Shown here one piece after another: positions 10,214 to 30,073 of a stretch of DNA of 64,000 nucleotides. The first letter of the stretch is position 1, and each line of letters begins with the position of its first letter. The notes under the pieces are model-generated. The model ran no database searches and was not told the origin of the DNA. It was given only the letters and a program-made list of their open reading frames with translations. The stretch lies in assembly GCA_001768235.1 (NCBI GenBank), contig MENK01000022.1, positions 1-64,000 on the forward strand, written 5' to 3'. A program made the translations under genes and the position numbers. This DNA is from Bacteroidetes bacterium GWB2_32_14. GTDB taxonomy: Bacteria > Bacteroidota > Bacteroidia > Bacteroidales > UBA12077.

Positions 10214-10790
10214 CTATTTAAATAAAATATTGTATTCATCTAAATTATTAATATTCACTAATATTTTGTCATCATTTACATTTATTTTTTTCATTTTATA
10301 ATTACATAAGTATTCTTTAAAATGTAATTGATTATTTTTTTCATCTCGAATGCCGTTAATTATTTTCTCTGATATTAAAATTGGATGCCCTCCTCTCCCT
10401 TTATATTCAGGTACAATTAAATCTGACTCTAAAGAATTTTCAAGTAATTTATATAGTAAATCATGATTAACAAAGGAATTGTCAACATTATGTATATATA
10501 AAAAGGCTGTTGGGTATTTCTTCGACACCCAATCTTTACGAATAAAAACGATGCCAGACGGGGTGTCAGTTAATAATTATCCGAACAATTTCCAGAAATT
10601 TATAATTCTTCTCAATAAACGATGAATAATCGGTTTCGTTAATTATGATAACTATTTCTTTACATCCAAAACTATGATATTTATTAACGATATTTTCAAT
10701 AAATGATCGGTTTTGATCAAATTGTAACGACCACACTGTGATGATTTTCCTGTTGCAACAATAATAACAAGATTGTTATTTTTCCTCAGC
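10214..10790 (-). pseudogene. Degraded second copy of ygfJ-like NTP transferase
   Basis: Nucleotide-level homology to 13714-14313 with frameshifts and loss of the SRMGVPK-coding segment; only the 10214-10528 C-terminal ORF survives. Confidence 0.85.
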
Positions 10791-10941: not shown

Positions 10942-10974
10942 AAAAACCACGATAAAATTAATTATCGTGGTTTT
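10942..10974. terminator. Bidirectional hairpin terminator
   Basis: AAAACCACGATAA-AATTAA-TTATCGTGGTTTT. Confidence 0.75.
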
Positions 10975-10997: not shown

Positions 10998-12623
10998 CTA
11001 ACTTTCTGGAAGTAATTCTTTCGTTTTTAGTTTTGACGGAGTAAAAATTCCAATTACACCTTTCAGTCCCACACTCATTACAATATTATAAAAGAAGGCT
11101 AAAAAAGAAATTAATAACAATGAACCAGCTAATGCAGCAAGAATCATATATAGGTTAAATTCGCCATCAACATAAAGTGTACGGCGTAACATTCCTTTTA
11201 GTCCTGCCATTCCCATGAATGCCCCCATGCCGATTCCACCAATCAAATGTAACCAGAAATGAATATTCGCAAGTTTTTGGCTATATAATTTAGCCCCATT
11301 TGTAACAATAGGAAACAAGAGATATACTGCGGCATATAATGTCATTGTTAAACCAACAAGAACAGCAACGTGCACGTGTGGGCCAACAATCCACTGGGTG
11401 TTATGTAATATTCTGTTTAAACCTACATCAGCCTGCATTATACCCGCGGGAACAGCTAAAGCAAACCCGAGTAACCCTCCAAGTAGAAACTTTAATGGAT
11501 TTGTCATTTTTAAAGGCCTTGCACTCCATAATGTAGCCAATGTAATAAAAAAAGCTAAACCCTGAGTAATTAATTCAAATGCTGTTACAAGTTCTCCTGA
11601 AACAATCTTTAGCATAGCTGGTTGTGCCTGGTCTGAAAGTAAATGATGCGACCACACTGTCCACGAAACAACCAGTTCAAGCAATAAAGCAGCACGTGCA
11701 ATATTTTGCATAAATAACTTTTTCCCGGTAATCATAGTTGCTATAAGATACCATGTACCGGCAACAAAAATCAGAACCAATCCATCGGCAATTAAATCCA
11801 ATCCCCACCAAAACCAATTTTTATATAATAATGCATCAATTGCAGATTCTTTTAAATCAACCCCGAGTATGTTTGCAAGCATATAAATCAGGATCAATAC
11901 ACCTGTAAATAAAATAATGCTTGTATTTAAAACCATATCAACAGTACCACGGGCAATTGCAGCTACAGGCAATGGAACTAAGTGCTCTTTCCGGTTTTCT
12001 TTTTTGCGGAATAAATTTCTAAACCCGCTGTATCCAATAGCAGAACCAAGTAATGCTGCAGACGGTTGTTTTTCCCATCCTTCAGGGGTATATACAATGG
12101 TTTTAAAAATATTAATTATAAAAAATAACGTTCCAACCATTAGTATTGCAATTCCTAAAATAAAAAACGTGCCTCCCCAAACACTAAACTGACTAAAATC
12201 TGCAGGTAGCGGCCAATACAAAGTATAAAGCGGTGCATAATGAGATATAAATCCTGCGAACCAAAAAATAAATGTACCCGATGCCAATAATATTAACGAC
12301 CAGTTTGCAAGTTTGATACTGTATAAAGGTTTTTTCATTAAATATGGAGTCAGGAATAAAAAAGCTCCAAAAACCAATGCATAGGTTGAACCGAAAATCC
12401 CGACCAACGGGTGAGCTGTTAGAATTGCAAAAAATTGATTCGTGTTAATTAACGGTATTTGTTCAACCTCATATATTCGCATTATCATTCCTTCAATAAC
12501 AGCAAAACCATAATATATTAGTCCAACAACAACAAATCGCAATACTATTTTTTGCATTTGAGTTAAAGAATCCGGCTTAAATAAACCTTCAGTTCCATGA
12601 ATAAATGTATTCTTAAATGACAT
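10998..12623 (-). CDS. Heme-copper oxidase superfamily catalytic subunit, non-canonical (candidate NO reductase)
   Basis: Helix-VII HH (VWSHH), helix-X HxH (VGPHVHV), helix-II His (TAHPLVG); helix VI reads WWGLDLIADG instead of a His-containing motif. Confidence 0.8.
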   Translation of the reverse strand: MSFKNTFIHGTEGLFKPDSLTQMQKIVLRFVVVGLIYYGFAVIEGMIMRIYEVEQIPLINTNQFFAILTAHPLVGIFGSTYALVFGAFLFLTPYLMKKPLYSIKLANWSLILLASGTFIFWFAGFISHYAPLYTLYWPLPADFSQFSVWGGTFFILGIAILMVGTLFFIINIFKTIVYTPEGWEKQPSAALLGSAIGYSGFRNLFRKKENRKEHLVPLPVAAIARGTVDMVLNTSIILFTGVLILIYMLANILGVDLKESAIDALLYKNWFWWGLDLIADGLVLIFVAGTWYLIATMITGKKLFMQNIARAALLLELVVSWTVWSHHLLSDQAQPAMLKIVSGELVTAFELITQGLAFFITLATLWSARPLKMTNPLKFLLGGLLGFALAVPAGIMQADVGLNRILHNTQWIVGPHVHVAVLVGLTMTLYAAVYLLFPIVTNGAKLYSQKLANIHFWLHLIGGIGMGAFMGMAGLKGMLRRTLYVDGEFNLYMILAALAGSLLLISFLAFFYNIVMSVGLKGVIGIFTPSKLKTKELLPES

Positions 12624-12657
12624 ATATATAAATTTTTTTGTTTAACAAATGAACTAT

Positions 12658-13218
12658 CTAAACACCTTCGCATGGTGTAACTTCTACAGCATCTTTCAAT
12701 ACCATAAATACCCCCCTTGGGCCGGAGTACTCTGTTGAGCGAATAGTATAAATGCCAGGTTTGTCGAATTTCCAAAGAATGTCGTTTCTATGCCCGGGAA
12801 CAACCTGCATTTGAAAAACCATACTGTTATCCTGCCTGAACAATCCAAACCCATATGTTAAGTCATTTGATTTAACATCGAATAACACCAAATCATTACA
12901 GTTGATTACCAGTTTATCTGATGGCAATATAAACTCATGATTCGCAACAGATATTTCAAATGTCTTATCCGGATTATAATCTCCACGGTTTAAATCTACC
13001 GGGGCCCAGGGTATTGTATTGTATGTAATAATATGTAACGATACCCCAAGCACAGTTAAAAATCCTACAAATGTGTAAAAAATTGCAGGTCTTACTACAT
13101 TGCTTTTTCCTGTTTTAGTGATTTTGTATCCAAACCACAGCATTAAGAGAATTATTACAAGGCAATAAAACGTGTAAGCAATAGTTTGCCCCCAAAGAAC
13201 AACATTCGAATCGACCAT
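12658..13218 (-). CDS. Cytochrome oxidase subunit II-like cupredoxin protein lacking CuA ligands
   Basis: N-terminal TMs plus cupredoxin fold; CuA-loop equivalent STEYSGPRGVFM in place of CxExCGxxHxxM. Confidence 0.8.
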   Translation of the reverse strand: MVDSNVVLWGQTIAYTFYCLVIILLMLWFGYKITKTGKSNVVRPAIFYTFVGFLTVLGVSLHIITYNTIPWAPVDLNRGDYNPDKTFEISVANHEFILPSDKLVINCNDLVLFDVKSNDLTYGFGLFRQDNSMVFQMQVVPGHRNDILWKFDKPGIYTIRSTEYSGPRGVFMVLKDAVEVTPCEGV

Positions 13219-13713: not shown

Positions 13714-14313
13714 TTAGAAATATAGTTTATAATCTTCTATTGTATTAATATTAATCAGTATTCTCATGTCATTAACATCCGTTTTTTTCCTGGAATATCG
13801 GGTAAGGAATTCTTTGAAATGAATTTGCTCACTGGTTTCAGAAATTATATCTGTAATAATTCTCTTCGTTATTAAAATAGGATGTCCTCCTCTCCCTTTA
13901 TATTCAGGTACAATTAAATCTGACTCTAAAGAATTTTCAAGTAAATTATATAGTAAATCATGATTAACAAAGGGATTGTCAACATTATGTATATATAAAA
14001 AATGACTGTTGGGTATTTCTTTTACACCCAATTTTAACGAATAAAAACGATGCCAGTCGGGGTGGCAATTAATAATTATCCGGACATTTTCCGGAAACTT
14101 ATAATTCTTCTCAATAAACGATGAATAATCGGTTTCGTTAATTACGATAACTATTTCTTTGCATCCAAAGCTATGATATTCGTTAACGATATTTTCAATA
14201 AACGATCGGTTTTTATCAAATTGTAACGACCATTTTGGAACACCCATACGTGATGATTTTCCTGCCGCAAGAATAATAACAGAATATTTTTTTTTAATAG
14301 TCGTATTTTGCAT
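13714..14313 (-). CDS. ygfJ: YgfJ/MocA-like nucleotidyltransferase (molybdenum hydroxylase accessory)
   Basis: LAAGKSSRMGVPK signature; YIHNVDNPFVNHDLL, YKGRGGHPILI; divergent from ygfK. Confidence 0.8.
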   Translation of the reverse strand: MQNTTIKKKYSVIILAAGKSSRMGVPKWSLQFDKNRSFIENIVNEYHSFGCKEIVIVINETDYSSFIEKNYKFPENVRIIINCHPDWHRFYSLKLGVKEIPNSHFLYIHNVDNPFVNHDLLYNLLENSLESDLIVPEYKGRGGHPILITKRIITDIISETSEQIHFKEFLTRYSRKKTDVNDMRILININTIEDYKLYF

Positions 14314-14424: not shown

Positions 14425-17400
14425 ATGTCAGATAAGTTTTATCCTGTTTCAGTAAAGCAACTATTGCATATAATTTTAAAAGAATACGATAAAAGCCAGA
14501 GTATTTTTGGCATTCCCCGCGAGTTATTTTTTAATCCAACCATGAATAAGAAATTACTTGTAGAGCAATTTAATCAAACCATTGACAGTCCTATAGGAGT
14601 TGCTGCAGGCCCTCATTCACAGATGGCTCAAAATATTATTGCAGCCTGGTTAATGGGTGCTCGTTATATTGAATTAAAAACCATTCAAACTCTCGACGAA
14701 CTCGAAGTTTCGAAACCCTGCATCGATATGCAGGATGAAGGTTATAATTGTGAATGGTCGCAGGAGCTTAAAATTAAAGAAAGCTTTAACGAATACCTGA
14801 ATGCCTGGGTTATTATTCATATTTTAAACCACAAGTTTGGATATCGTGCTGAAGCCGGAACAATATTCAACATGAGTGTTGGTTACAACCTGGAAGGTAT
14901 TCTAAAAGACAATGTACAATGGTTTTTCAATAAGATGAATGACTGCACTGATGAGTTACATCAAAAAATTAATGAAATAAAAGTACTTTATCCCGAGATT
15001 ACTAAAATTAAGATTCCTGCTCAGATATCAAATAATATTACTTTATCAACCATGCATGGCTGCCCGGCCAATGAAATAGAATCTATTGCAGGTTATTTAT
15101 TAAATGAAAAAAAACTGCACACCTATGTTAAGCTAAATCCTACACTTTTAGGGCCAGAAAAGCTAAGAGAGATACTAAATAAAACGTTGGGATTTAAAAC
15201 TGAAGTACCTGATATCGCTTTCGAGCATGATTTGAAGTATCCTGATGCACTTAATATCATTAAATCACTGCAGGAAACTGCAAAAAATAAAAACCTGCAA
15301 TTTGGATTAAAACTAACCAACACGCTGGAATCTGTAAACAATAAATCCGTTTTTGGAGAACAGGTTGATATGATGTATATGAGTGGACGTGCTTTACATC
15401 CTGTTTCAATTCATGTAGCCCAAAAATTACAACAGGAATTTAACGGGAACTTGCAGCTTTCATTCTCAGCAGGTGCTGATGCGTTCAATATTTCAGAGAT
15501 TCTTTCCTGCGGATTTAAAACAGTAACTGTTTGTTCTGATATATTAAAACCGGGTGGTTATATGCGCATGAATCAATATGTTGATGAATTGTTAAAAGCC
15601 CTTGAATCAAATAAGGCTAATACTATCCCTGAATACATAAAATCAAATGCGTCGATTGAAGATTTAAAAAAAGCTTCATTAATAAACATCGAAAAATATA
15701 GCAAAAAAGTACTGAATTTAAAACATTATAAACGGGAGTATATTCAATCACCCGATATAAAAACAAACCGGGAATTAGGTTATTTTGATTGTATTGCAGC
15801 ACCTTGTAAAGATACCTGTGCAACAAACCAGGATATCCCGGATTACATGTATTATACTTCGGCCAATCAGTTTGGTAAAGCTTATGAAGTAATCCTGAAA
15901 ACAAACCCTTTTCCTTCAATAACAGGGATGGTATGCGACCATTTATGCCAGAATAAATGTACCCGGATAAATTATGATGAATCGCTTTTAATTCGTGAAG
16001 TTAAACGTTTTATATCAGAACAGGATGAGGTTAAACCGGATACTGCATCTAAAAACAATATAAAAGTTGCAGTTATCGGAGCAGGCCCATCGGGTTTATC
16101 TTGTGCATATTATTTAGCATTGGCAGGATTTTCAGTAGAAGTTTTTGAAGCAAATTCCAAAGCCGGAGGAATGATTCAGTATGCTATTCCCGGGTTCAGA
16201 TTAACAAACGAAGCAATTGAAAAGGATTTTAAAAGAGTAGCTGATTTAGGTGTTGAGATTCACTACAATACCAAGGTAGATAAAACAAAATTTGAGCTTT
16301 TAAAAGAAACATTCAATTACCTTTTTATTGGTGTTGGTGCTCCTGTTTCAGCGCCGATAGAACTTGAAGGTATAGAATCGAAAGGAGTAATTGATTCTTT
16401 AACATTCCTTTTTAAAGCAAAAAAGAATGAAAAAACAGGAATAGGCAAAAATGTTATTATTATTGGTGGTGGGAATACAGCTATGGATGCTGCAAGAACT
16501 GCATACCGTTTAGTAGGAAACGAGGGAAAAGTAACCATCGTTTATAGAAGAACTATTAATGAAATGCCTGCTGATCAAGGCGAAATTAAAGCAGTATTAG
16601 AAGAAGGAATGGAAATTATGGAGTTAACCGCTCCTGAAAAGATTATCAACGAAAATGGTGAAGTTAAAGCCTTATTATGCAACAAAATGAAATCAGGTGA
16701 AAAAGATTCATCGGGGCGACAAAAACCAATAAAAATTGAAGATTCTGAATTTGAAATCCCTTGCGATACTATTATTCCTGCAATTGGTCAAAGCCTGGAT
16801 ATCGATTTTATTCAAAACGAATTACTTAAAGCAAATACAGAAAATTACAAAACACAAATCGAAAATATTTTTATTGGTGGAGATGCTTTACGCGGAGCTG
16901 CTACAGCTATTAAAGCCATTGGCGATGGTAGAAAAGCTGCTGAACAGATAATATTTAAAGCCGAAATTGATTTTAAAATCCGGAAACCAAAGAATGGTAA
17001 AAATTTTAGTAAAAAAGAATTGATGCTCAAACGGGCAATTCGAAAATATGCTCCGGAAGTTAAAGAACTTGAAATTACAGATCGTAAGAATTTTAAATTA
17101 ATAAGTGAAACTTTAGATTCCGTTAAAGCAATTGAAGAAGCCGGCCGATGCCTTCAGTGTGATGAGATTTGCAATATATGTACTACCGTATGCCCTAATT
17201 TTGCTAATTATTCATATGAAATTGAACCTGTTAAAATTCAGCTTCAAAAAGCAATTGTTGATGAAAAAGGAGATATATCTATTACAAACGATGGATTTTT
17301 CGAAATCAGTCAGAAATACCAGATACTTAATATCGCCAATTTTTGTAACGAATGTGGAAATTGCAATACCTTCTGCCCCACTAATTCGGCTCCGTATAAA

Positions 17401-17700
17401 GAAAAACCCAAGGTTTATCTTACCAAATCATCATTCGAAAAAGCAACAGGAGGATTTTATGTTGAAGAATCAATAACAGGAACGAAAATAATTCATAAAA
17501 ATTTAACTAATCAGGAGAGTTTGCTTGAAACTGATGATGTTTATATTTATAGCTCTTCTAAAGCAATTGTACAACTCAATAAAATTGATTTTAAAATTAT
17601 TGATGTGCAATTTATAAATCATGCACGGGAAATCCATTTACACCAGGCTTCACAAATGAGTATTTTACTCAAAGGAATAAAAAACCTGGTATTTGAATAG
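14425..17700 (+). CDS. ygfK: YgfK-like putative selenate reductase subunit / flavoprotein oxidoreductase
   Basis: DHOD-like N-terminus, GltD-like flavin/NAD domains (GAGPSGLSCAYYLALAGFSVEVFE, IIGGGNTAMDAARTAYRL), C-terminal CNECGNCNTFCP ferredoxin motif. Confidence 0.9.
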   Translation: MSDKFYPVSVKQLLHIILKEYDKSQSIFGIPRELFFNPTMNKKLLVEQFNQTIDSPIGVAAGPHSQMAQNIIAAWLMGARYIELKTIQTLDELEVSKPCIDMQDEGYNCEWSQELKIKESFNEYLNAWVIIHILNHKFGYRAEAGTIFNMSVGYNLEGILKDNVQWFFNKMNDCTDELHQKINEIKVLYPEITKIKIPAQISNNITLSTMHGCPANEIESIAGYLLNEKKLHTYVKLNPTLLGPEKLREILNKTLGFKTEVPDIAFEHDLKYPDALNIIKSLQETAKNKNLQFGLKLTNTLESVNNKSVFGEQVDMMYMSGRALHPVSIHVAQKLQQEFNGNLQLSFSAGADAFNISEILSCGFKTVTVCSDILKPGGYMRMNQYVDELLKALESNKANTIPEYIKSNASIEDLKKASLINIEKYSKKVLNLKHYKREYIQSPDIKTNRELGYFDCIAAPCKDTCATNQDIPDYMYYTSANQFGKAYEVILKTNPFPSITGMVCDHLCQNKCTRINYDESLLIREVKRFISEQDEVKPDTASKNNIKVAVIGAGPSGLSCAYYLALAGFSVEVFEANSKAGGMIQYAIPGFRLTNEAIEKDFKRVADLGVEIHYNTKVDKTKFELLKETFNYLFIGVGAPVSAPIELEGIESKGVIDSLTFLFKAKKNEKTGIGKNVIIIGGGNTAMDAARTAYRLVGNEGKVTIVYRRTINEMPADQGEIKAVLEEGMEIMELTAPEKIINENGEVKALLCNKMKSGEKDSSGRQKPIKIEDSEFEIPCDTIIPAIGQSLDIDFIQNELLKANTENYKTQIENIFIGGDALRGAATAIKAIGDGRKAAEQIIFKAEIDFKIRKPKNGKNFSKKELMLKRAIRKYAPEVKELEITDRKNFKLISETLDSVKAIEEAGRCLQCDEICNICTTVCPNFANYSYEIEPVKIQLQKAIVDEKGDISITNDGFFEISQKYQILNIANFCNECGNCNTFCPTNSAPYKEKPKVYLTKSSFEKATGGFYVEESITGTKIIHKNLTNQESLLETDDVYIYSSSKAIVQLNKIDFKIIDVQFINHAREIHLHQASQMSILLKGIKNLVFE

Positions 17701-17712
17701 AATTTTTCTAAC

Positions 17713-18174
17713 TTACAATTTAAAGTTTTGTTTCACCTTGGTTTCTGCCATAACAAACGAACTGTAAAATTGAGTAATATTTCCGATAGTAGAGAATTTT
17801 GCAGTAACAAAATTATGGAAATCATCCATATCATTGCAATATACTTTTAACAGAAAGTCAATATTACCCGATATATAATAACATTCCATCACTTCATCCA
17901 TTTGGCTCATTTGTAGTTCAAACTCATCAATAGCTTCTTTGGTATGTTTATTTAGTGAAACGGATATGTAAACAATTAATTTCTTCCCAATTAATTTAGG
18001 ATCGATTAGAGTTAAATAATTTTTTATATATCCACTTTTTTCAAGTTTCTTTATACGTTCGTGAATAGGAGTTGTAGATAAATGCAATTTTTCTGATAAT
18101 TCGCGAATTGTAATCCTGCTATTTGTTTGTAATACATTAAGTAGCTTTCTGTCAATTTCATCAAGTGGTTTCAT
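17713..18174 (-). CDS. Lrp/AsnC family transcriptional regulator
   Basis: LDEIDRKLLNVLQTNSRITIRELSEKLHLSTTPIHERIKKLEKSGYI plus RAM-like domain. Confidence 0.95.
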   Translation of the reverse strand: MKPLDEIDRKLLNVLQTNSRITIRELSEKLHLSTTPIHERIKKLEKSGYIKNYLTLIDPKLIGKKLIVYISVSLNKHTKEAIDEFELQMSQMDEVMECYYISGNIDFLLKVYCNDMDDFHNFVTAKFSTIGNITQFYSSFVMAETKVKQNFKL

Positions 18175-18309
18175 CCTAGCTTATTTTCCTGTTAATAATT
18201 ATAAAATTTCGAACAAATATAAGTTATTTCTATCATTATACAAATTATTAGTTATTTTTCCTATATTTTTGTATTTTAAAAGAATATATAAATATATTAT
18301 CTATCTTGC

Positions 18310-19821
18310 ATGGGTAAAAAAACATATTATAATTTTATTATGATTCAAATTATTGACAGAATAACAAACGAAAAAGTACTGCAAAATGCAGTTAACCGAT
18401 TTAAAGAAAGAAAGATTATTCTACCTACATTTAAGCAACAACAGAATCCGGAACTCATTCCTGAAAAAATAAAGAACCATCTGAAAAATATAGGTTTATG
18501 GGAAATCAATCCATTAAACCTGTTTAGGATAACCTGGAAAAACGAACCCAAAGAAAAAGGAGGGTTATTTGGTAAAGTGAATTATATAGAATTACCAAAA
18601 TCCTTAACAGGCGTTAATGCCCGGATTGTTCTTTTAATAGGAAAATGGTTTCCAACAGGGGCTCATAAAGTAGGTGCGGCATATGGCTGTTTAGCTCCAA
18701 GAATCACCACGGGCGAATTTGATCCAACCTATCACAAAGCAGTATGGCCTTCAACAGGAAATTATTGTCGTGGTGGTGCTTTCGACTCAAAATTAATGGG
18801 TACAGAATCTGTGGCTATCTTACCACAGGAAATGAGCAAGGAACGATTTACCTGGTTGCGCGATGTTATTGGTTCCGAAGTAATTGCAACACCGGGTTGT
18901 GAATCTAATGTTAAGGAAATATATGATAAATGCTGGGAAATTCGCAGGACACGCCCTGATTGTGTCATTTTTAACCAGTTTGATGAATTTGGTAATGCAG
19001 CCTGGCATTACAATACCACAGGTAAAGCTATCGAAGAAGTATTTAATCATGTTAAAACGAAAGAAAGTAAGCTTGCAGCTTATATTTCTGCAACAGGTTC
19101 GGCGGGAACAATAGCTGCCGGTGATTATTTAAGAACTGTTGCACCGCATGTAAAAGTTGTTGCTTCTGAAGCTTTACAATGCCCTACCCTGCTTATGAAT
19201 GGTTTTGGCGGTCACCGCATCGAAGGCATTGGCGATAAACACGTTCCCTGGATTCATAATGTAAAAAATACAGATGTTGTTACTGCAATCGATGATGAAG
19301 ATTGTATGCGGATTTTACGATTATTTAACGAAAAAGAAGGCCATAACTATTTAAAATCATTAGGTGTCGATCCTGAAATTATTGAAAACCTGCACTTAAT
19401 TGGAATATCGGGTATTGGAAATTTACTGTCGGCTATAAAAACAGCCAGGTATTATGAAATGACTAAAGAAGATATTATTGTTACAATAGCAACTGATTCT
19501 GCCGACATGTACCAGTCACGAATTACTGAATTACACGACGAAAAAGGAAAATACACTGATATGCAAGCTGTAAAAGATTTCGAAAAGTGTATTTTGGGTT
19601 CAAAAACCGACAGTATGAAAGAATTGAATTACTATGATAAAAAAGCTATTCATAATTTAAAATACTTTACATGGGTTGAACAACAAGCTAAAGAAGTTGA
19701 AGACCTTAATCAGTTATGGTACGATCGTGAAATATGGAATAAATTGTTCTTACAACTTGAACACTGGGATGATTTAATCAATGAATTTAACGAAAGGACA
19801 GGATTGCTGAAGAATCTTTAA
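18310..19821 (+). CDS. PLP-dependent fold-type-II enzyme (cysteine synthase-like superfamily)
   Basis: FPTGAHKVGAAYG (PLP Lys), ISATGSAGTIAAGDYL, SGIGNLLSAIKTARYY. Confidence 0.8.
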   Translation: MGKKTYYNFIMIQIIDRITNEKVLQNAVNRFKERKIILPTFKQQQNPELIPEKIKNHLKNIGLWEINPLNLFRITWKNEPKEKGGLFGKVNYIELPKSLTGVNARIVLLIGKWFPTGAHKVGAAYGCLAPRITTGEFDPTYHKAVWPSTGNYCRGGAFDSKLMGTESVAILPQEMSKERFTWLRDVIGSEVIATPGCESNVKEIYDKCWEIRRTRPDCVIFNQFDEFGNAAWHYNTTGKAIEEVFNHVKTKESKLAAYISATGSAGTIAAGDYLRTVAPHVKVVASEALQCPTLLMNGFGGHRIEGIGDKHVPWIHNVKNTDVVTAIDDEDCMRILRLFNEKEGHNYLKSLGVDPEIIENLHLIGISGIGNLLSAIKTARYYEMTKEDIIVTIATDSADMYQSRITELHDEKGKYTDMQAVKDFEKCILGSKTDSMKELNYYDKKAIHNLKYFTWVEQQAKEVEDLNQLWYDREIWNKLFLQLEHWDDLINEFNERTGLLKNL

Positions 19822-19854
19822 ATACTCAATACTTTGCCTTACTATTATAAAAAT

Positions 19855-19973
19855 GGTGTCTCAAATGTAAAAAATCATTCCTGGAAAAACTCAATACTAC
19901 ATTATTTTCTTGTTGGAACAGAACAAGCCAGAAATGAAAAACCTTAAAACCTAAACATAGAGACACCCTTTTT
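19855..19973 (+). ncRNA. Candidate structured RNA / multi-stem terminator
   Basis: Nested arms GGTGTCTC/GAGACACC, ATGT/ACAT, TCATTCCTGG/CCAGAAATGA (one mismatch), CTTGTT/AACAAG, ending in a T-run. Confidence 0.45.
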
Positions 19974-20042
19974 TAATAACTTGGTAATTTTTAATTATTG
20001 AGTTGAACAAAAATAATTAATTTCGTAGTAGTTCAAAATAGT

Positions 20043-21293
20043 ATGCCTGTTAAAATACATAGCCAGAAGTTTATTTACCAGTGTATCGATTGTGGAAAAC
20101 AATATTTTACAAACGAAACCACCTATTTGTGTCCAAGTTGCAGCAAGGAAAATAACGATTTGTCTCCTCCAAAAGGAGTTCTTGGAATTGTTTATAACTT
20201 TTCTGATATTTTAAAGAAAAATTTTCTGTTTAAAGATTTTAAAAAGGAAAAATTTCTTGATTTATTGCCAATCAACAAATCTGAAAATCTTCCTAAACTT
20301 AAAGTGGGAAATACTCCCCTCTATAAATTTAACAAGCTGGATAATAAGGATTTATCTTTCATGTTATATTTAAAAGATGATTCCCAAAATCCAACCTTTT
20401 CTTTTAAGGACAGGGCATCTTCATTGGTTTCGGCTTTTGCTAAAGAAAATAAGTTAGGGACAATAGTTACAGCATCTACAGGAAACGCGGGTTCATCACT
20501 AGCAGGTATTTGTGCTTCGCAGGGACAGAAAGCAATTGTTATGGTTCCTGAAACTGCACCTTTAGCCAAATTAACGCAGATTATAATGTATGGAGCAACC
20601 ATTGTTCCGGTAAAAGGTACATACGATGATGCTTTTGATTTAAGTATCAAGGCAACCAGTGAGTTTGGCTGGTACAACCGAAATACTGCATTTAATCCAT
20701 TAACTATTGAAGGGAAAAAAACAGTCTCGTACGAAATCTTTGATCAGCTCAATGAATCTTTACCCGACAGAATATTTGTTCCCGTTGGTGATGGCGTAAT
20801 TATTTCAGGTGTTTATAAAGGATTCGAGGATCTTTTGAATCTGAAAATTATTGATAAAATACCAGTAATTGTTGCTGTTCAGTCTGAAGGAAGCAATAAC
20901 CTGATCCGAAATTTAAATAATACAAACTTTGAAATAAAGCCAAGTAATACACTTGCCGATTCTATTTCTGTTGATATACCTCGTAACTTTTACATGGCCA
21001 GATATTATATTCAGAAATACAAAGGTGAGGTATTATCTATTTCTGATGAAAAAATACTGGATGCATCGGCTGTTTTATCGAGAAATACGGGTTTATTTGC
21101 CGAGCCTGCAGCGGCTACAGCTTTTGCCGGGTTCTTAAATTATTACAATCAAAACAAACTTGACAACAACTCCAAAAATGTTGTACTTTTAACAGGAAGC
21201 GGATTAAAAGATCTAAAATCAGTTCAAAAACTATTAAATATTCCTGAATCAATTGAGCCTGCAATAGATAATTTGAAAAAACTTATCTCATGA
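20043..21293 (+). CDS. Threonine synthase-like PLP-dependent lyase with N-terminal zinc-ribbon
   Basis: CIDCGKQYFTNETTYLCPSC; NPTFSFKDRASSLVSAFA; TASTGNAGSSLAGICASQG. Confidence 0.8.
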   Translation: MPVKIHSQKFIYQCIDCGKQYFTNETTYLCPSCSKENNDLSPPKGVLGIVYNFSDILKKNFLFKDFKKEKFLDLLPINKSENLPKLKVGNTPLYKFNKLDNKDLSFMLYLKDDSQNPTFSFKDRASSLVSAFAKENKLGTIVTASTGNAGSSLAGICASQGQKAIVMVPETAPLAKLTQIIMYGATIVPVKGTYDDAFDLSIKATSEFGWYNRNTAFNPLTIEGKKTVSYEIFDQLNESLPDRIFVPVGDGVIISGVYKGFEDLLNLKIIDKIPVIVAVQSEGSNNLIRNLNNTNFEIKPSNTLADSISVDIPRNFYMARYYIQKYKGEVLSISDEKILDASAVLSRNTGLFAEPAAATAFAGFLNYYNQNKLDNNSKNVVLLTGSGLKDLKSVQKLLNIPESIEPAIDNLKKLIS

Positions 21294-23839
21294 TTACTTT
21301 TACTTTAAATGGTGTTAAAGAAACATACACGGGAAACCCTGAAGAAACATTATTGAATCATTTACGTCTCGGTAAACACATTACATCTGTAAAAGACGGA
21401 TGTTCAGGTCAGGCTGTTTGTGGAGCCTGTACTGTTGAAATTGATGGCAAAGCCAAACTGGCCTGCGTGATTAAAATAAAAACTTTAGATGGTACTGAAA
21501 TATTCACCCCGGAAGGTTTCCCCGAATATGTAAAAGATACTATTGCCAAAGCATTTGTAAATAAAGGAGCTGTACAATGCGGTTTTTGTTCTCCTGGCTT
21601 TATAAGCAGAACAAAAGTATTACTTCAGGATAATCCTAATCCTTCTGTTGAAGAAATTCAGAAAGCCATTAAACCCCATATTTGCCGATGTACAGGGTAC
21701 AAAAAAATCGAAGATGCCATAATATATGCAGGTAAAGCTATTCGTGAAAACAAAAAATTAGAAATTACCAAAACATCTGGTAAAATTGGCGTTTCGCAGC
21801 CCAAGTATGATGCTTATCGCACTGCTTTAGGCGAAAGACCATTTGTTGATGATTTATTTTTCGATGGAATGTTATTCGCTGCTCTAAAGATGAGCGATTA
21901 TCCAAAAGCAAAAGTGTTAAAAATTGATGTTTCCAAAGCTGAAAAGATTCAAGGTGTTCATAAAATATATACTGCAAAGGATATTCCCCGGGAAAAAAAG
22001 GTAGGTTTAATATACAAGGACTGGAGCGTGATGATTGGGGAAAGCGAAACTACCCATTATATTGGTGATGTTATTGCCGGTGTTGTTGCCGAATCGGATG
22101 AGATTGCCCGGGAAGCAGTTAAATTAATTCAGGTTGATTATGAAGTATATAAACCCGAAACCGATGTATTTAAAGCTATAGAAGGAGAACGGGTACATCC
22201 TGATAAGCCCAATAATTTTAACACAACTCAATTTACAATAGGCAATGCCGATGAAGCCCTAAAAAATTCAAAATACATATCCAAAGGAAAATATGAAACC
22301 CAGCGAATTGAACATGCTTTTTTAGAAAAAGAAGCTGCTTTAGCTCGCCCCGATGGTAAAGGCGGATTGGAATTATTCAGCCAGAGTCAGGGCGTTTATG
22401 AAGATCGTCGCCAGGTAGCAATGATTTTAGGATTACCGGAAGAAAAGGTTCGGGTAACACTTGTTCCGAATGGTGGTGGCTTTGGTGGTAAAGAAGATTT
22501 AAGTGTTCAGGGACAAACAGCTCTCTTTGCCTATCTTACCCGAAAACCTGTAAAACTCACATTAACACGGGAAGAATCTATTCGATTGCATCCAAAACGA
22601 CATCCTGTTTTTATGGATATTGAAATTGGAGCAAACGAAAATGGTATGTTAACAGCATTAAAACTAAGAGCTGTAGGCGATACCGGGGCTTATGCTTCGG
22701 TTGGAACAAAGGTGTTGGAACGTGTTGCCGGCCATGCTGCCGGTGGATATTTTATTCCTGATGTTGATATTGAAGCAAAAACCGTTTATACCAATAACAT
22801 CCCTTGTGGCGCCATGCGTGGTTTTGGTGCAAACCAGGTTTGTTTTGCCCTAGAAAGCTGTATTGATGATATTTGCAAACAAGCCGGATTTGATCGTTGG
22901 CAATTCAGGTATGACAATGCATTAACCGACGGCTTAAAAACATCAACCGGACAAAAAGTTTTTGGAGTTGGTATTCGGGCTTGTCTCGAAGCTGTTAAAG
23001 ATGATTTTAACAATGCCAGGCATGCCGGCTTAGCATGTGCAATTAAAAATTCAGGCGTTGGTAACGGGATGATTGATGAATCGAAAGTAATTATTGAAAT
23101 ACTTTCTGAAAATCATATTCGCCTGCAACACGGTTGGACTGAAATGGGCCAGGGAGTACATAATATGGCCTTACAAACTTTATGTGAAGAAATTGGTGTT
23201 TTACCCGATATTATTGAAGTAATTGTTGATACCGAAGCACAGATTAAAACAGGAATGACTACATCATCGCGTGCTACTGCACTTGTCGGATTAGCTGTAA
23301 TAAATGCTGCAAAAGCAATTAAAGAAGATTTAAAGACTAAATCGTTAAAAGATCTTACCGGAAAATCGTATAAGGGTCAGTTTGTATGTGACTGGACAAC
23401 CAAACCGGGAAGTGATGTTGATGAACAAATAACACATTACTCCTACGGGTATGCTGCGCAAGTATGTATTCTCGATGAAAAAGGAAATATCTCTAAAATG
23501 ATTGCTGCCCATGATGGTGGTAAAATCATGAACCCGATGTTATTCGAAGGCCAAATTGAAGGCGGTGTTCATATGGGATTGGGATATGCTTTGTCCGAAG
23601 ATTTACCAATGAAAGATGGTTATCTTGTAAGTGACAAAATGCGTGATTTACAAATCCTGAGAGCACACGAAACTCCTAAAATTGTTGTAAAAATGGTCGA
23701 AGTAAAAGATCCAATTGGTCCATACGGGGCAAAAGGTATTGGAGAAATCGGTTTAGTTCCAACTGCTGCTGCTGTAGCCAATGCCTTTTATCAATTTGAT
23801 GGAATAAAACGATATAAATTACCTTTAAAAAGAAAATAG
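21290..23839 (+). CDS. xdhD: Fused 2Fe-2S/molybdopterin xanthine dehydrogenase-like hydroxylase (XdhD / selenium-dependent XDH type)
   Basis: CSGQAVCGACTVEIDGKAKLAC, CGFCSPGF...CRCTGY, GGGFGGKED, GAMRGFGANQ, TEMGQGVHN, GAKGIGEIGLVP; no FAD domain; ATGA overlap with upstream gene. Confidence 0.9.
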   Translation: MITFTLNGVKETYTGNPEETLLNHLRLGKHITSVKDGCSGQAVCGACTVEIDGKAKLACVIKIKTLDGTEIFTPEGFPEYVKDTIAKAFVNKGAVQCGFCSPGFISRTKVLLQDNPNPSVEEIQKAIKPHICRCTGYKKIEDAIIYAGKAIRENKKLEITKTSGKIGVSQPKYDAYRTALGERPFVDDLFFDGMLFAALKMSDYPKAKVLKIDVSKAEKIQGVHKIYTAKDIPREKKVGLIYKDWSVMIGESETTHYIGDVIAGVVAESDEIAREAVKLIQVDYEVYKPETDVFKAIEGERVHPDKPNNFNTTQFTIGNADEALKNSKYISKGKYETQRIEHAFLEKEAALARPDGKGGLELFSQSQGVYEDRRQVAMILGLPEEKVRVTLVPNGGGFGGKEDLSVQGQTALFAYLTRKPVKLTLTREESIRLHPKRHPVFMDIEIGANENGMLTALKLRAVGDTGAYASVGTKVLERVAGHAAGGYFIPDVDIEAKTVYTNNIPCGAMRGFGANQVCFALESCIDDICKQAGFDRWQFRYDNALTDGLKTSTGQKVFGVGIRACLEAVKDDFNNARHAGLACAIKNSGVGNGMIDESKVIIEILSENHIRLQHGWTEMGQGVHNMALQTLCEEIGVLPDIIEVIVDTEAQIKTGMTTSSRATALVGLAVINAAKAIKEDLKTKSLKDLTGKSYKGQFVCDWTTKPGSDVDEQITHYSYGYAAQVCILDEKGNISKMIAAHDGGKIMNPMLFEGQIEGGVHMGLGYALSEDLPMKDGYLVSDKMRDLQILRAHETPKIVVKMVEVKDPIGPYGAKGIGEIGLVPTAAAVANAFYQFDGIKRYKLPLKRK

Positions 23840-23894
23840 TTTTTTATACATTTTTAACTTTCAACTTTTATCTTAAAACTTTTATCTTAATATC

Positions 23895-25166
23895 ATGTCA
23901 ATTCTATTAAAAAACGCAACATACATCGATTGGAAAACCTTAGAATTCAAGAATACTCACATTTTTATTGAAGAAGGAATTCATGGAAAAATTCAATTTT
24001 TAGATAACCCGGATTCATACAAGTTAAAAGAGACTATAGACTGCAAGGGGAAAATTGTAACCAAATCATTTGCAGTTGGGCATCATCATGTTTATTCTGC
24101 AATGGCTCGTGGAATGGGAGCTCCGAAAAAGAATCCGGAAAACTTTTATGAGATTTTAGAATACGTTTGGTGGACACTGGATAAATGTCTTGACAAGGAT
24201 ATGGTTGAATACAGTGCTTTGACTACTGCAATAGCATGCGCGAAAGCAGGATCGACATTTGTAATCGATCATCATGCATCACCAAATTTTATCGGGGGAT
24301 CATTGGATGTCATTGCTAAAGCATTTGATAAAGTTGGTGTAAATCATTTATTATGCTACGAAATTACCGACAGGGATGGATTAGATAAAGCAGAACAAGG
24401 ACTTTCGGAAACTGAAAATTACCTTAAAACAAACCAGGGATTGGTAGGATTACATGCTTCGTTTACTGTTGGTGACCAAACCATGAAAAAAGCAACAGAC
24501 TTAATGAATAAGTACAATTCAGGTTTTCACATTCATGTAGCTGAAGATTTACACGACCAAAGACACTGTTATGATAATTTTAGTAAACGGGTTGTAGAAC
24601 GATTAAACGATTATGGAGTATTAAATTCATCAAAAACAATACTTGGACATTGTATCCATATCGATGAAAATGAGCGAAATATAATTAAAAACTCAAAATC
24701 GTTCGTAGTTCAAAATATGGAAAGCAACCTGAATAATAAAGTCGGGTATTTCAATAGTAAAGGGCTTGGTGAAAATATTATGTTTGGTACCGACGGAATG
24801 CACAGTGATATGTTACAAAGTGCTAAATCAGCCTTTTTTTCAGGCCAGGATTCAGATAACATTGATTATTCATCAGCATATAGTCGATTTCGCAACGTAC
24901 ACAGGTATATTGAGTCAAATCAGTTTGCAGGTGATGGTGAAAACAATCTTGTAGTTCTTGATTATGATTCACCTACAGAAATAAATCAGAATAATTTTCT
25001 AGGACATTTTCTTTTTGGAATCAACTCAAATCATGTGTGTAATGTAATATCAAACGGGAAAATTATTGTTAAAGACCGTAAAATTAAAACCGTTAACGAA
25101 GAGGAAATCTTAAAAACTTCGCGCGAACTAGCCAATAAACTTTGGAAAAAAATGCAAAACAGTTGA
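23895..25166 (+). CDS. ssnA: SsnA-like amidohydrolase
   Basis: Metal-dependent amidohydrolase with GHHHVYSAMARGM, HIHVAED, ILGHCIHI, MFGTDGMHSDM. Confidence 0.85.
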   Translation: MSILLKNATYIDWKTLEFKNTHIFIEEGIHGKIQFLDNPDSYKLKETIDCKGKIVTKSFAVGHHHVYSAMARGMGAPKKNPENFYEILEYVWWTLDKCLDKDMVEYSALTTAIACAKAGSTFVIDHHASPNFIGGSLDVIAKAFDKVGVNHLLCYEITDRDGLDKAEQGLSETENYLKTNQGLVGLHASFTVGDQTMKKATDLMNKYNSGFHIHVAEDLHDQRHCYDNFSKRVVERLNDYGVLNSSKTILGHCIHIDENERNIIKNSKSFVVQNMESNLNNKVGYFNSKGLGENIMFGTDGMHSDMLQSAKSAFFSGQDSDNIDYSSAYSRFRNVHRYIESNQFAGDGENNLVVLDYDSPTEINQNNFLGHFLFGINSNHVCNVISNGKIIVKDRKIKTVNEEEILKTSRELANKLWKKMQNS

Positions 25167-25263
25167 AAAATTGCAAGTTCTAAGTTCAAAGTTTTTAAAA
25201 GTAATTTTTTAGTTTACATATTTAACTTATAACTTTGAACCTTCAACTTTTACTTATTATTAA

Positions 25264-25893
25264 ATGGAAATAAATATCTTGCAATGGATTGGTTATGCAG
25301 CATCCATAATTATTGCGTTATCAATGACAATGAACTCCATCGTGAAATTCAGGTGGGTTAATTTAGCAGGAGCCATAACATTTTCAACATATGGTTTTTT
25401 AATTGGAGCATATCCTGTAGGTATTTTAAATGGATTTATTGTATGTGTCGATATTTATTACCTGGTCATTATTTATTCAAAGAAAGAAATCTTTGAAATA
25501 TTAGAAGTTCGCCCAGACAACAGGTATTTATTACGTTTTTTGAAGTTTCATGATGCTGAGATTCAAAAATTTTTTCCCGGATTTACATACAAACCTGAAA
25601 TGAACACTATCAGCTTTTTTATTCATCGAAACATGGCTGTTGCCGGATTATTTCTGGCACACAGAACAGAAGACGGTTCACTTAAAGTTGGCCTCGATTA
25701 TGTGATTCCTGAATACAGGGATTTTAAAAATGGTAAATTCGTATATCATCGATTAAGTCAGCGATTTATCGAAGCAGGTTTTAAAAAAGTAATTACAAAG
25801 GGTGAAAGCAAAAAACATGTTAAATACTTAAAAAAACTTGGATTTGTTGAAGATCAAGATGGTTGTTATGTAAAAACCTTTGAATCAAAATAA
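25264..25893 (+). CDS. YgjV-like three-TM protein with C-terminal GNAT-like domain
   Basis: N-terminal TM helices then acetyltransferase-like segment YVIPEYRDFKNGKFVY...FKKVITKGESKKHVKYLKKLGF. Confidence 0.55.
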   Translation: MEINILQWIGYAASIIIALSMTMNSIVKFRWVNLAGAITFSTYGFLIGAYPVGILNGFIVCVDIYYLVIIYSKKEIFEILEVRPDNRYLLRFLKFHDAEIQKFFPGFTYKPEMNTISFFIHRNMAVAGLFLAHRTEDGSLKVGLDYVIPEYRDFKNGKFVYHRLSQRFIEAGFKKVITKGESKKHVKYLKKLGFVEDQDGCYVKTFESK

Positions 25894-25910
25894 TTAATTT
25901 CACTTTCAAC

Positions 25911-27281
25911 ATGAACATAATTATTAAAAATGGGACTATTGTTACATCTGGGGAAATTCTTGAATCAGATATTTTAATTGAAAATGGGATAATTTCCAAA
26001 ATAGAAAAATCATTAAATACTTTAGATAAACTTGATAAAACCATTGATGCCAAAGGCTTAATCATTTCCCCGGGTGGAATAGATCCCCATGTACACATGT
26101 ATCTCCCTACTCCTGCCGGTTATTCGTCTGATAATTTTAATACAGGAAGCATTGCTGCTTTATTCGGTGGAACAACGACCCTTCTGGACTTTGTTACTCC
26201 AAGAAAAGGACAATCGTTAACTGATGCTCTCGATCAAAGAATTTCAGAAGCCGGTAATTCTCTGTGCGATTATTCTTTTCATGTCAGCCCTATAGAATGG
26301 ACAGAAAATACAGAGAATGAAATTAATGATTGTATTAAAGCCGGAATAACTTCTTTTAAAGTGTACATGGCCTATAAAGGTTCTGTAGGACTAGATGATA
26401 CAAATCTTCAAAAAGTACTTAAAGTAGTTGGAAAAGCTGGTGGATTAGTTACTGTCCATTGCGAAATGGGTGATGAAATTGAAGTTTTGCGTAATCAGTT
26501 TGTTTCAGAAGGTAAAATTGAATCCAGATATCATGCTTTATCCCGACCAGCAGAATTAGAGGCAGAAGCTGTTCAGAAAGTAGTTGATTATGCTAAAGAA
26601 ACAAATTGTACTGTTTACATTGTCCATGTATCTTCAGAAAAATCCCTGAAAATTATTGAAAAAGCTCAAAAATCAGGACAAAAAGTATTTGCAGAAACCT
26701 GCCCACATTATTTATTGCTCGATGATTCAAAATACAATGGAACTTTTAAAGACACTGTTAAATATGTTTTAAGTCCGCCATTGCGTAAAAAGGCTGATCA
26801 GGAAGCCCTTTGGGACAATATTCAGAAAGGAGTTATTTCAACTATAGGAACAGACCATTGCCCGTTTAATTTAATTCAAAAATCAGCAGGAATAAATGAT
26901 TTCAGAAAAGTACCCAACGGAGCTGGTGGTGTTGAGCATCGATTGACTTTACTTTATACTTATGGAATATTAGAAAATAAAATTACCTGGAATCAGTTTG
27001 TGGATATTACATCAACACAAACTGCAAAAATATTTGGTTTATACCCGCAAAAAGGAGAAATAGCCGTTGGTTCCGATGCCGATTTGGTTATTTGGAATCC
27101 GGAAAAAAAAAACACAATTTCTGCCAGGAACCATCATCAGAATTGCGATCTTGAGATTTACGAAGGTTTTAAAACCAAAGGAGCTCCTGAATTTGTATTA
27201 AAAAAGGGAGAAATTGTTATTGATAAAGGTGAACTTATTTCAAATCGAACAGGTTTATTTCTAAAACGAAAAATCAAATAG
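25911..27281 (+). CDS. hyuA: Dihydropyrimidinase/hydantoinase
   Basis: GGIDPHVHMYLP, FKVYMAYKG (carbamylated Lys), VTVHCEMGDE, IGTDHCPF. Confidence 0.9.
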   Translation: MNIIIKNGTIVTSGEILESDILIENGIISKIEKSLNTLDKLDKTIDAKGLIISPGGIDPHVHMYLPTPAGYSSDNFNTGSIAALFGGTTTLLDFVTPRKGQSLTDALDQRISEAGNSLCDYSFHVSPIEWTENTENEINDCIKAGITSFKVYMAYKGSVGLDDTNLQKVLKVVGKAGGLVTVHCEMGDEIEVLRNQFVSEGKIESRYHALSRPAELEAEAVQKVVDYAKETNCTVYIVHVSSEKSLKIIEKAQKSGQKVFAETCPHYLLLDDSKYNGTFKDTVKYVLSPPLRKKADQEALWDNIQKGVISTIGTDHCPFNLIQKSAGINDFRKVPNGAGGVEHRLTLLYTYGILENKITWNQFVDITSTQTAKIFGLYPQKGEIAVGSDADLVIWNPEKKNTISARNHHQNCDLEIYEGFKTKGAPEFVLKKGEIVIDKGELISNRTGLFLKRKIK

Positions 27282-27352
27282 ATTACAAAAAAACAGATTT
27301 AAACAGATCTTTAGATCCATTCAAATCTGTGTCATCTAATTTCTATTATTAC

Positions 27353-28540
27353 CTATAAACCTACCCTTTTATTATTTCTTTTTAATATATTTTGTAAAAC
27401 TTCCGATGGTTTCTCGAATTTAGTAGTAAACATCATAGCAGCAATAATATAGGGTTTAAATCCTGCTTCAAGATATGTTCTTATCCTGTATTGTTCGAAA
27501 ACATTTCCATTCACTTCGCCTTCTTTACACGAAACGCCACTGATATCTGCTGGTAAACAATGCATGTATAAAGCATCCTGGTTTTTTGTCAGTTTCTTTT
27601 TCGCATCGTTGTATTCCCAGTTTTTAAATTTGGCATTATTAGTCAAACAAGTTTGTTCCAAAGCTTTTAAACCTTCTTTATCGGCAGCTTGCAACAATTT
27701 TGTACGTTGTTGCATGATATGAAATGGAGCCCAGCTTTTTGGATAAACGATATCTGCATCTTTCATTGCATCTTCCATTGAATGGCTTACATTTAATGAA
27801 CCACCACTTTGTTTTGCATTGTTTTTAGCAATCTCAACTATTTCAGGAATTAATCCGTAACCTTCGGGATATGCCAGTTCGATATTCATTCCGTATCGTG
27901 ACATTAAAGCAATGATACCTTGTGGAACAGAAAGTGGTTTTCCGTAGCTTGGTGAATACGCCCAGCTCATTACAATTTTTTTACCTTTCAGGTTCTCCAA
28001 CGATCCAAACTGGTTTTGTAAATGCATTAAATCGGCCATAGATTGTGTTGGATGGTCCATATCGCACTGTAAGTTTACAATTCCCGGGCGACTGGGTAAT
28101 ACTCCTTTTGCAAATCCTTCGTCTAATGCTTCACCAACTTCGCGCATGTATTTATTTCCTTCGCCAAGAAACATATCATCACGAATACCAATAAAATCAG
28201 ATAAAAACGAAATCATGTTTGCTGTTTCACGAACAGTTTCTCCATGTGCAATCTGTGATTTTTGCTCGTCCAAATCCTGAACTGCTAATCCAAGCAAGTT
28301 GCTTGCCGAGGCAAACGAAAAACGTGTACGTGTTGAATTATCACGGAAATTTGAAATAGCCAAGCCTGAATCGAAAACCCGGGGTGATATATTGTTATCA
28401 CGCATTTCTTTCAGAATTTCTGCAACATCAAGAACAGCTTTTAAATCTTCCTGGCTTTTTTCCCAGGTAAGTAAGAAATCTTTTTTGTAAAGATTTGTTT
28501 TTAAAGCACTTAATTTTTGTATTTTATCATGTAAACTCAT
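27353..28540 (-). CDS. ygeW: YgeW-type knotted carbamoyltransferase
   Basis: FRDNSTRTRFSFASA carbamoyl-phosphate loop, DMDHPTQSMADL, YMHCLPAD. Confidence 0.9.
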   Translation of the reverse strand: MSLHDKIQKLSALKTNLYKKDFLLTWEKSQEDLKAVLDVAEILKEMRDNNISPRVFDSGLAISNFRDNSTRTRFSFASASNLLGLAVQDLDEQKSQIAHGETVRETANMISFLSDFIGIRDDMFLGEGNKYMREVGEALDEGFAKGVLPSRPGIVNLQCDMDHPTQSMADLMHLQNQFGSLENLKGKKIVMSWAYSPSYGKPLSVPQGIIALMSRYGMNIELAYPEGYGLIPEIVEIAKNNAKQSGGSLNVSHSMEDAMKDADIVYPKSWAPFHIMQQRTKLLQAADKEGLKALEQTCLTNNAKFKNWEYNDAKKKLTKNQDALYMHCLPADISGVSCKEGEVNGNVFEQYRIRTYLEAGFKPYIIAAMMFTTKFEKPSEVLQNILKRNNKRVGL

Positions 28541-28648
28541 ATAAATTCATTTTTATTTTTTTACTAAACCATTAACCTGCATTTTCGTGGTTCTTTGTGT
28601 TTTCGTGACTTCGATGCTTATATTACACAAAATTTACACAAAATATTA

Positions 28649-29836
28649 TTAAATCTCATATGCAAATGCAGCATAAAATGCCGATGCAACAACTAAATCC
28701 TGAATTGCTACTTTCTCGTTTGGAGCATGTGCAAGCACTTCGTTGCCCGGCCCGAATCCAATAGTTGGTATTCCGTAGGTTCCGCAAGTCATAATACCGT
28801 TGGTAGAGAATGTCCATTTATCAATTAAAGGGGCTTTACCATATAGATTTTTATAAGAACGAACTCCGGTTTGAACTATTTCATGATCTTCTGGCATTTT
28901 CCAGGTTGGATAGTATTTCTCCATTCCATATTCCAGTCCGGTATATGCTTTTTCTTTGTAATCAAGAACTTCCACTTTTGCATTCATTCCTTTAATAAGT
29001 TCCTGAATCTCAGCAACTGCAGATTCTTTGGTTTCGCCCCATGTTAACCGGCGATCCAGGTGAATTCGTGCATAATCGGAAACCGCACATAACGATGGTG
29101 TTCCGGAAATTATTTCTGAAATGGTAACGCTTCCTTTTCCAAGAAATTCATCAAATTTTAAATGTTCATTTAGCTTTTCAATTTCCAATGCTGTTCGCGA
29201 TGCCATATAAATAGCATTCTTACCACGTTCAGGAGCAGAACCATGTGATGAAACACCATAGAAATGAACATGAATTTCCATTCTCCCTCTATGTCCTCTA
29301 TAAATATTCAAATTTGTAGGTTCTGTGCTTATTACAAAATCAGGTTTAATTTTATCTTCTTCAACAATGAATTTCCAGCACAAACCATCGCAATCTTCTT
29401 CCATCACACTACCCACAAAATAGATGGTTAAGTCTTTATTAAAGCCAAGTTCTTTTAAAATCCTTCCTGATGTTACAAAAGCTGCTGGCCCGCCTTCCTG
29501 ATCAACAGATCCGCGTCCATGAACAAAACCATCTTTAATTTCGCCGCCAAGCGGGTTAAAACTCCAGTTGTCCATGTTTCCCATATCTACTGTATCCATG
29601 TGCCCGTCAATAGCCAATATCTTCTTTCCATTTCCTATTTGGCCAATCACATTGCCTAAACCATCAATCCAAACTTTATCAAAGCCAGCTTCTTCCATCT
29701 GACGTTTAAGTTCTAATTGAACATCTTTTTCCTGAGTACTTAACGATTTGATTTTAATTAACTTCGAGAGGTTTTCAGCAGTATAATCGCGGTATTTCTC
29801 CGAAAGTTCATTTATTCTTTTATAAATATCATTCAT
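28649..29836 (-). CDS. ygeY: YgeY family M20 hydrolase
   Basis: AIDGHMDTVDMG, VHGRGSVDQEGG, VMEEDCDGL, M20 peptidase layout. Confidence 0.9.
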   Translation of the reverse strand: MNDIYKRINELSEKYRDYTAENLSKLIKIKSLSTQEKDVQLELKRQMEEAGFDKVWIDGLGNVIGQIGNGKKILAIDGHMDTVDMGNMDNWSFNPLGGEIKDGFVHGRGSVDQEGGPAAFVTSGRILKELGFNKDLTIYFVGSVMEEDCDGLCWKFIVEEDKIKPDFVISTEPTNLNIYRGHRGRMEIHVHFYGVSSHGSAPERGKNAIYMASRTALEIEKLNEHLKFDEFLGKGSVTISEIISGTPSLCAVSDYARIHLDRRLTWGETKESAVAEIQELIKGMNAKVEVLDYKEKAYTGLEYGMEKYYPTWKMPEDHEIVQTGVRSYKNLYGKAPLIDKWTFSTNGIMTCGTYGIPTIGFGPGNEVLAHAPNEKVAIQDLVVASAFYAAFAYEI

Positions 29837-30073
29837 AACTTAATAATTCTTTAAATTCAGATGTTAAAATTATATTTTTTATTAAATATTTTCAATTTCC
29901 AGAATAGAATTATAGAAGATGTTCTTTGAATTAGAATAAACAAATACCTTTTATCAAATTCAAAGATTTTTTTTCTATTTTGGTTATTATATTACAAAAA
30001 ACAAACTTATATGTACAACTAATTCCTAAAAACAAAATACAAATCTTCTTATAACAATTATTTCATTGTATTT

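Follow-up and report, generated by a model that had tools for sequence, protein, structure and literature searches.

An operon for a putative nitric oxide reductase of the gNOR type from an anaerobic bacterium of the Bacteroidales

Introduction

What does a heme-copper oxidase-like enzyme do when an aspartate occupies the place of a copper-binding histidine and its partner subunit has lost the CuA site? The question is raised by two adjacent genes of Bacteroidetes bacterium GWB2_32_14 (contig MENK01000022.1), located in the window analysed here, a stretch of 64,000 nucleotides. A first-pass annotation had proposed that they encode a candidate non-canonical nitric oxide reductase (NOR) using quinol or another donor, possibly of an uncommon family. 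Here we describe the operon, its relatives and the enzyme that it may encode.

Organization of the operon

Both open reading frames were found at the position and on the strand previously annotated. They are encoded on the minus strand as a two-gene operon, with the gene for subunit II (SII; 12658..13218) followed after a gap of 34 nt by that for subunit I (SI; 10998..12623). In brief, SI is the putative gNOR-type catalytic subunit, a COX1 family protein of 541 aa (Pfam COX1, E 1.2e-57), and SII is a protein of 186 aa with two transmembrane helices and a cupredoxin domain without CuA (NCBIfam CoxB, E 1.3e-6). A GGAGG sequence resembling a ribosome binding site is found ahead of SII. Downstream of SI, a 13 bp perfect hairpin followed by T's (10943..10974, minus strand; -20.4 kcal/mol, z -5.2) is the likely terminator of the operon.

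The matches of SI and SII to the curated NCBIfam CoxA and CoxB models are poor and far under the cut-offs, and routine annotation would therefore give "cytochrome c oxidase" or nothing. A COX1 search of the host genome, which is 98.95% complete, found SI only.

Active site of subunit I

All heme ligands and two of the CuB histidines are kept in SI. These are His71 of helix II, the low-spin heme ligand (12411..12413), His326-His327, the two remaining CuB/FeB histidines (11643..11648), and the helix X heme ligands His416-x-His418 (11370..11378), all encoded on the minus strand. The third CuB/FeB histidine, in helix VI, is replaced by Asp276 (minus strand, 11796..11798). A phmmer alignment to the Thermus ba3 oxidase (fwwgldliad to FWWTGHPIAY) places Asp276 on the histidine and Asp280 (minus strand, 11784..11786) on the tyrosine. 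A MAFFT L-INS-i alignment with 39 reference heme-copper oxidases also places Asp276 at the helix VI histidine; this set covered the A, B and C families of oxidases together with cNOR, qNOR and one eNOR-like protein, with sub-family labels assigned from motifs. HHalign gave the same result against the B-family and cNOR profiles, with Asp280 on the tyrosine of the former and the glutamate of the latter, and a gap across helix VI makes its alignment to the A-family profile uninformative at this site. In cNOR this glutamate is one of the FeB ligands (Glu211 of the P. aeruginosa enzyme).

The residues named in the first-pass annotation, including the Asp276 codon, were read correctly, and the positions it gave to Asp276 and Asp280 hold in these alignments. 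Neither MAFFT nor HHalign placed a histidine of SI at the helix VI CuB position. The missing tyrosine cross-link is likewise confirmed: the MAFFT alignment shows a tyrosine at this position in the A- and B-family references and none in SI, and all 81 homologues have Asp. With regard to a proton channel, a feature that gNOR is expected to lack, the helix VI tyrosines of the B-family are absent from SI in the alignment, but the conserved helix VIII residues Glu350, Thr353 and Gln354 could carry protons. Glu350 (minus strand, 11574..11576) aligns in both MAFFT and HHalign with the conserved helix VIII glutamate of cNOR and qNOR (FSALE), a residue that the oxidase references do not have.

His71, Asp276, Asp280, the HH and HxH pairs and Glu350 are invariant in 81/81 homologues, and dN/dS for SI is 0.03-0.06. 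SI is under strong purifying selection. This conservation, together with that of SII described below, suggests a working enzyme in which the residue replacements are not due to chance. The AlphaFold2 model of SI is of moderate quality (pLDDT 76), with several weak loops.

Subunit II and the lost CuA site

The AlphaFold2 model of SII consists of two transmembrane helices and a cupredoxin domain (pLDDT 84), and its PDB matches are COX2 proteins. A profile alignment to the CuA domain of T. thermophilus pairs, in Thermus numbering, His114 with Tyr122, Cys149 with Ser161, Cys153 with Ser165, His157 with Gly169 and Met160 with Met172. Every CuA side-chain ligand except the methionine is gone, in agreement with the loss that had been read by eye (both Cys to Ser, His to Gly and the upstream His to Tyr, with Met kept), and SII is predicted to be unable to bind CuA. 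What was once the CuA loop now reads S161 T E Y S165 G P R G169 and is encoded at 12712..12738 on the minus strand. Tyr122, Ser161, Ser165 and Gly169 are fixed in 80/80 SII homologues. Since the residues that replace the ligands are themselves invariant, the domain appears to have a maintained role and not to be decaying.

Phylogenetic position

HHalign matched SI to the B-family profile with a probability of 99.6%, followed by the A-family (99.4%), C-family (97.9%), eNOR-like (97.5%), cNOR (43%) and qNOR (4%) profiles. In an IQ-TREE phylogeny of 48 proteins the SI family forms a single clade with support 100/100 on a long, fully supported stem of 1.91 changes per site. The clade is placed beside the A-family and a group of B-family and eNOR-like proteins, inside neither, and it is also outside the C-family oxidases and not with cNOR and qNOR; it should be noted that the program flagged long-branch effects and that the deep order of this tree is not settled. 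The HMM and phylogenetic placement proposed in the first-pass annotation thus gives a separate clade outside the oxidase and c/qNOR families, and a nesting within the canonical O2 reductases is not seen in the tree. Neither the 396 genomes searched in the phylum nor plasmids yielded an intermediate. The plasmid relatives are distant (23-34% identity), and the six examined are canonical oxidases. No relatives were found on viral contigs.

Three established assignments do not fit. SI is not an A-, B- or C-family O2 reductase, as it has neither the three CuB histidines nor the tyrosine and is not nested among them in the tree. It is not a member of c/qNOR, being outside that clade and having FeB ligands other than three His and a Glu. 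The eNOR, sNOR and bNOR families require Gln or Asn where the present proteins have Asp in 81/81 cases.

Comparison with nitric oxide reductase families

The oxidase tyrosine is replaced in NORs by Glu, Gln, Asp or Asn (PMC3475470). A passage of the same paper, citing Hemp & Gennis 2008 and Sievert 2008, describes NOR types in which a CuB/FeB histidine is replaced by Asp; we credit this trait to gNOR by inference from the Sievert citation in that passage. The active-site residue of gNOR is D, and the type is found in Sulfurimonas, Sulfurovum and Persephonella (PMC8756737, Table A4) as well as in Methylomirabilis (PMC6094997). It is described as a quinone-oxidising, non-electrogenic enzyme encoded by two genes, norGH (PMC8906906; PMC6094997), and as related to the B-family (PMC11388526). 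The present operon has the same traits: Asp280 in place of the active-site tyrosine, Asp276 in place of a CuB/FeB histidine, two subunits with a cupredoxin-type SII, and affinity to the B-family. A quinol donor would be expected here too. The reported gNOR hosts differ from the Bacteroidales, Ignavibacteria and few others seen in this study.

The characterized NORs are listed as cNOR, qNOR, bNOR and eNOR (PMC11388526). The eNOR, sNOR and bNOR families resemble the operon in being B-family-related NORs with a cupredoxin SII, but Gln or Asn takes the place of the tyrosine in them (PMC8756737) where SI has Asp. SI shares with cNOR and qNOR the helix VI layout WW-x-x-[H/D]-L-x-x-[E/D]-G, a carboxylate at the FeB-Glu position and the helix VIII Glu, whereas NorC or a fused cytochrome c domain is absent here and a metal-ligand His is Asp. 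The ba3 oxidases of the B-family, the closest profile, have in common with the operon an HNTxW motif before the helix X HxH and the CuA-domain fold of SII; their helix VI His, Tyr and CuA ligands are all absent.

As every comparable published trait of gNOR fits, we read the operon as a gNOR-type (norGH) nitric oxide reductase, with a probability of roughly 0.75 and with gNOR represented by its published descriptions only. A non-canonical NO reductase, as in the first-pass annotation, and one that is probably quinol dependent, is thus the best-supported reading, and the uncommon family can be named as gNOR from the published trait list.

Proposed mechanism and alternatives

We propose that SI is a polytopic protein of the heme-copper fold that would bind a low-spin heme through His71 and His418 and a high-spin heme through His416. 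Beside the latter, a non-heme metal would be held by His326, His327 and Asp276, with Asp280 adjacent; iron is favoured over copper for this metal on account of the two histidines and two carboxylates. Electrons would most likely come from membrane (mena)quinol, because SII is not expected to bind CuA, and two NO would be converted to N2O at the site formed by the heme and the non-heme metal. As it lacks a cross-linked tyrosine, the enzyme is not expected to be good at four-electron reduction of O2. The quinol donor, the NO substrate and the physiological role are thus inferred.

The long stem, together with the lack of intermediates, would also suit an NO reductase of an undescribed family of its own, a heme/non-heme-iron enzyme with a two-His two-carboxylate metal site that forms a separate transferable family of anaerobic Bacteroidota, derived from the A/B lineage independently of gNOR, c/qNOR and eNOR. 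The double-Asp site would then have been reached twice; we consider this unlikely, as both replacements, the cupredoxin SII and the expected quinol donor match gNOR of the literature. Still less likely is an oxidase that has an unusual active site and scavenges or reduces O2. The fold and the HMM and profile scores are indeed nearest to oxidases, and an anaerobic host may need protection from O2, but the protein differs from the A- and B-family references in having no tyrosine at the cross-link position, CuA and a cytochrome c subunit are lacking, and the host already has cytochrome bd. Least probable is another substrate or role, such as NO dismutation, hydroxylamine or nitrite chemistry, or sensing of NO or O2. 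The sporadic distribution with linkage to a regulator and the independence of nosZ and nrfA from the operon (see below) could be explained in this way. Putative NO dismutases, however, are qNOR-like whereas SI is outside the qNOR clade, and SI keeps a full set of heme ligands, unlike the degenerate protein of locus L134 described below.

Distribution and physiological role

One scan of 84,980 species gave 315 relatives. The 81 homologues sampled belong to Bacteroidales and Ignavibacteria or lie on contigs with the labels Spirochaetes, Acidobacteriota and Longimicrobiales, the last three labels being taken directly from MAG titles. The operon is carried by 16/247 genomes of the order and 12/396 of the phylum. 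As most carriers belong to different genera and the operon is missing from two members of the host's own genus, it appears to be frequently gained and lost. Gene GC tracks contig GC from 35% to 66% (r = 0.94), and any transfers are therefore likely to be old.

Besides L063, a second SII-SI pair (L101) surfaced through a weak NosZ cupredoxin match in the genome labelled Melioribacter roseus FI88, which has either two copies or is a mixed MAG. A COX1-like protein of another locus (L134; G285:C50:34000-38500) has Tyr for the CuB His, QQ for HH and QxH for HxH, and is by its sequence a degenerate protein of the heme-copper fold that has lost most of the metal ligands.

The host genome encodes Hcp and cytochrome bd; nosZ and nrfA were not found in it. 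We found nosZ in 1/16 and 1/50 carriers against 12/231 non-carriers, and none of nosZ, nrfA and hcp is associated with carriers (Fisher p 0.59, 0.80 and 0.62, respectively). Given that nosZ is nearly absent from carriers and nrfA is not enriched, host gene content suggests that the operon probably serves NO detoxification rather than denitrification.

The type was proposed from sequence, and we found no biochemical characterization of gNOR in the literature surveyed. The operon would add an anaerobic Bacteroidales member to this known, little studied type. Because the clade is common, extremely conserved and the sole heme-copper enzyme of the host, it is a good test case for gNOR. N2O, the product of NO reductases, is a greenhouse gas; if our reading is true, the carriers, which almost never have nosZ, would be N2O sources overlooked by norB-based surveys and standard HMMs.

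Gene neighbourhood and regulation

An Rrf2 regulator is encoded directly upstream of the operon and in the same direction in 48/81 loci, 3-130 nt from SII. The Rrf2 superfamily includes the NO sensor NsrR, and also IscR and SUF regulators. A C-x6-C-x5-C motif is present in 47 of the 48 proteins; they score under the curated NsrR cut-off and better with SUF/IscR models, and the curated models do not decide between an NsrR and an IscR/SUF type. The Rrf2 neighbour is absent at the window's own locus and at its nearest relatives. Upstream of the operon we found no clear Rrf2 box and no FNR- or CRP-type palindromes shared among loci, and no assembly gene recurs beside the operon among the loci compared. 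CRP/FNR, hemerythrin and NnrS-like genes are found near the operon in Ignavibacteria, and hcp in L039 and L011. We count the Rrf2 linkage and these neighbours, like the Hcp and cytochrome bd of the host, in favour of the gNOR reading, and the Rrf2 model scores, the missing Rrf2 neighbour in the window, the absence of an association of nosZ, nrfA and hcp with carriers and the lack of a recurrent assembly gene against it.

In the window, the operon is flanked by an intact MobA-like nucleotidyltransferase gene and a frameshifted second copy (10214-10790 vs 13714-14313; 82% identity across 580 bp), which suggests that it arrived with or through a duplication. The neighbouring region 14425-31072 contains YgfK-like, molybdenum-hydroxylase-like, amidohydrolase, dihydropyrimidinase-like, carbamoyltransferase and XdhC-like open reading frames, read by eye, and looks like a purine/molybdenum-hydroxylase cluster. 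In L063, L074, L039, L038, L046 and L072, a DUF6448 protein is encoded near the operon, in some cases as a fusion with hemerythrin or next to it.
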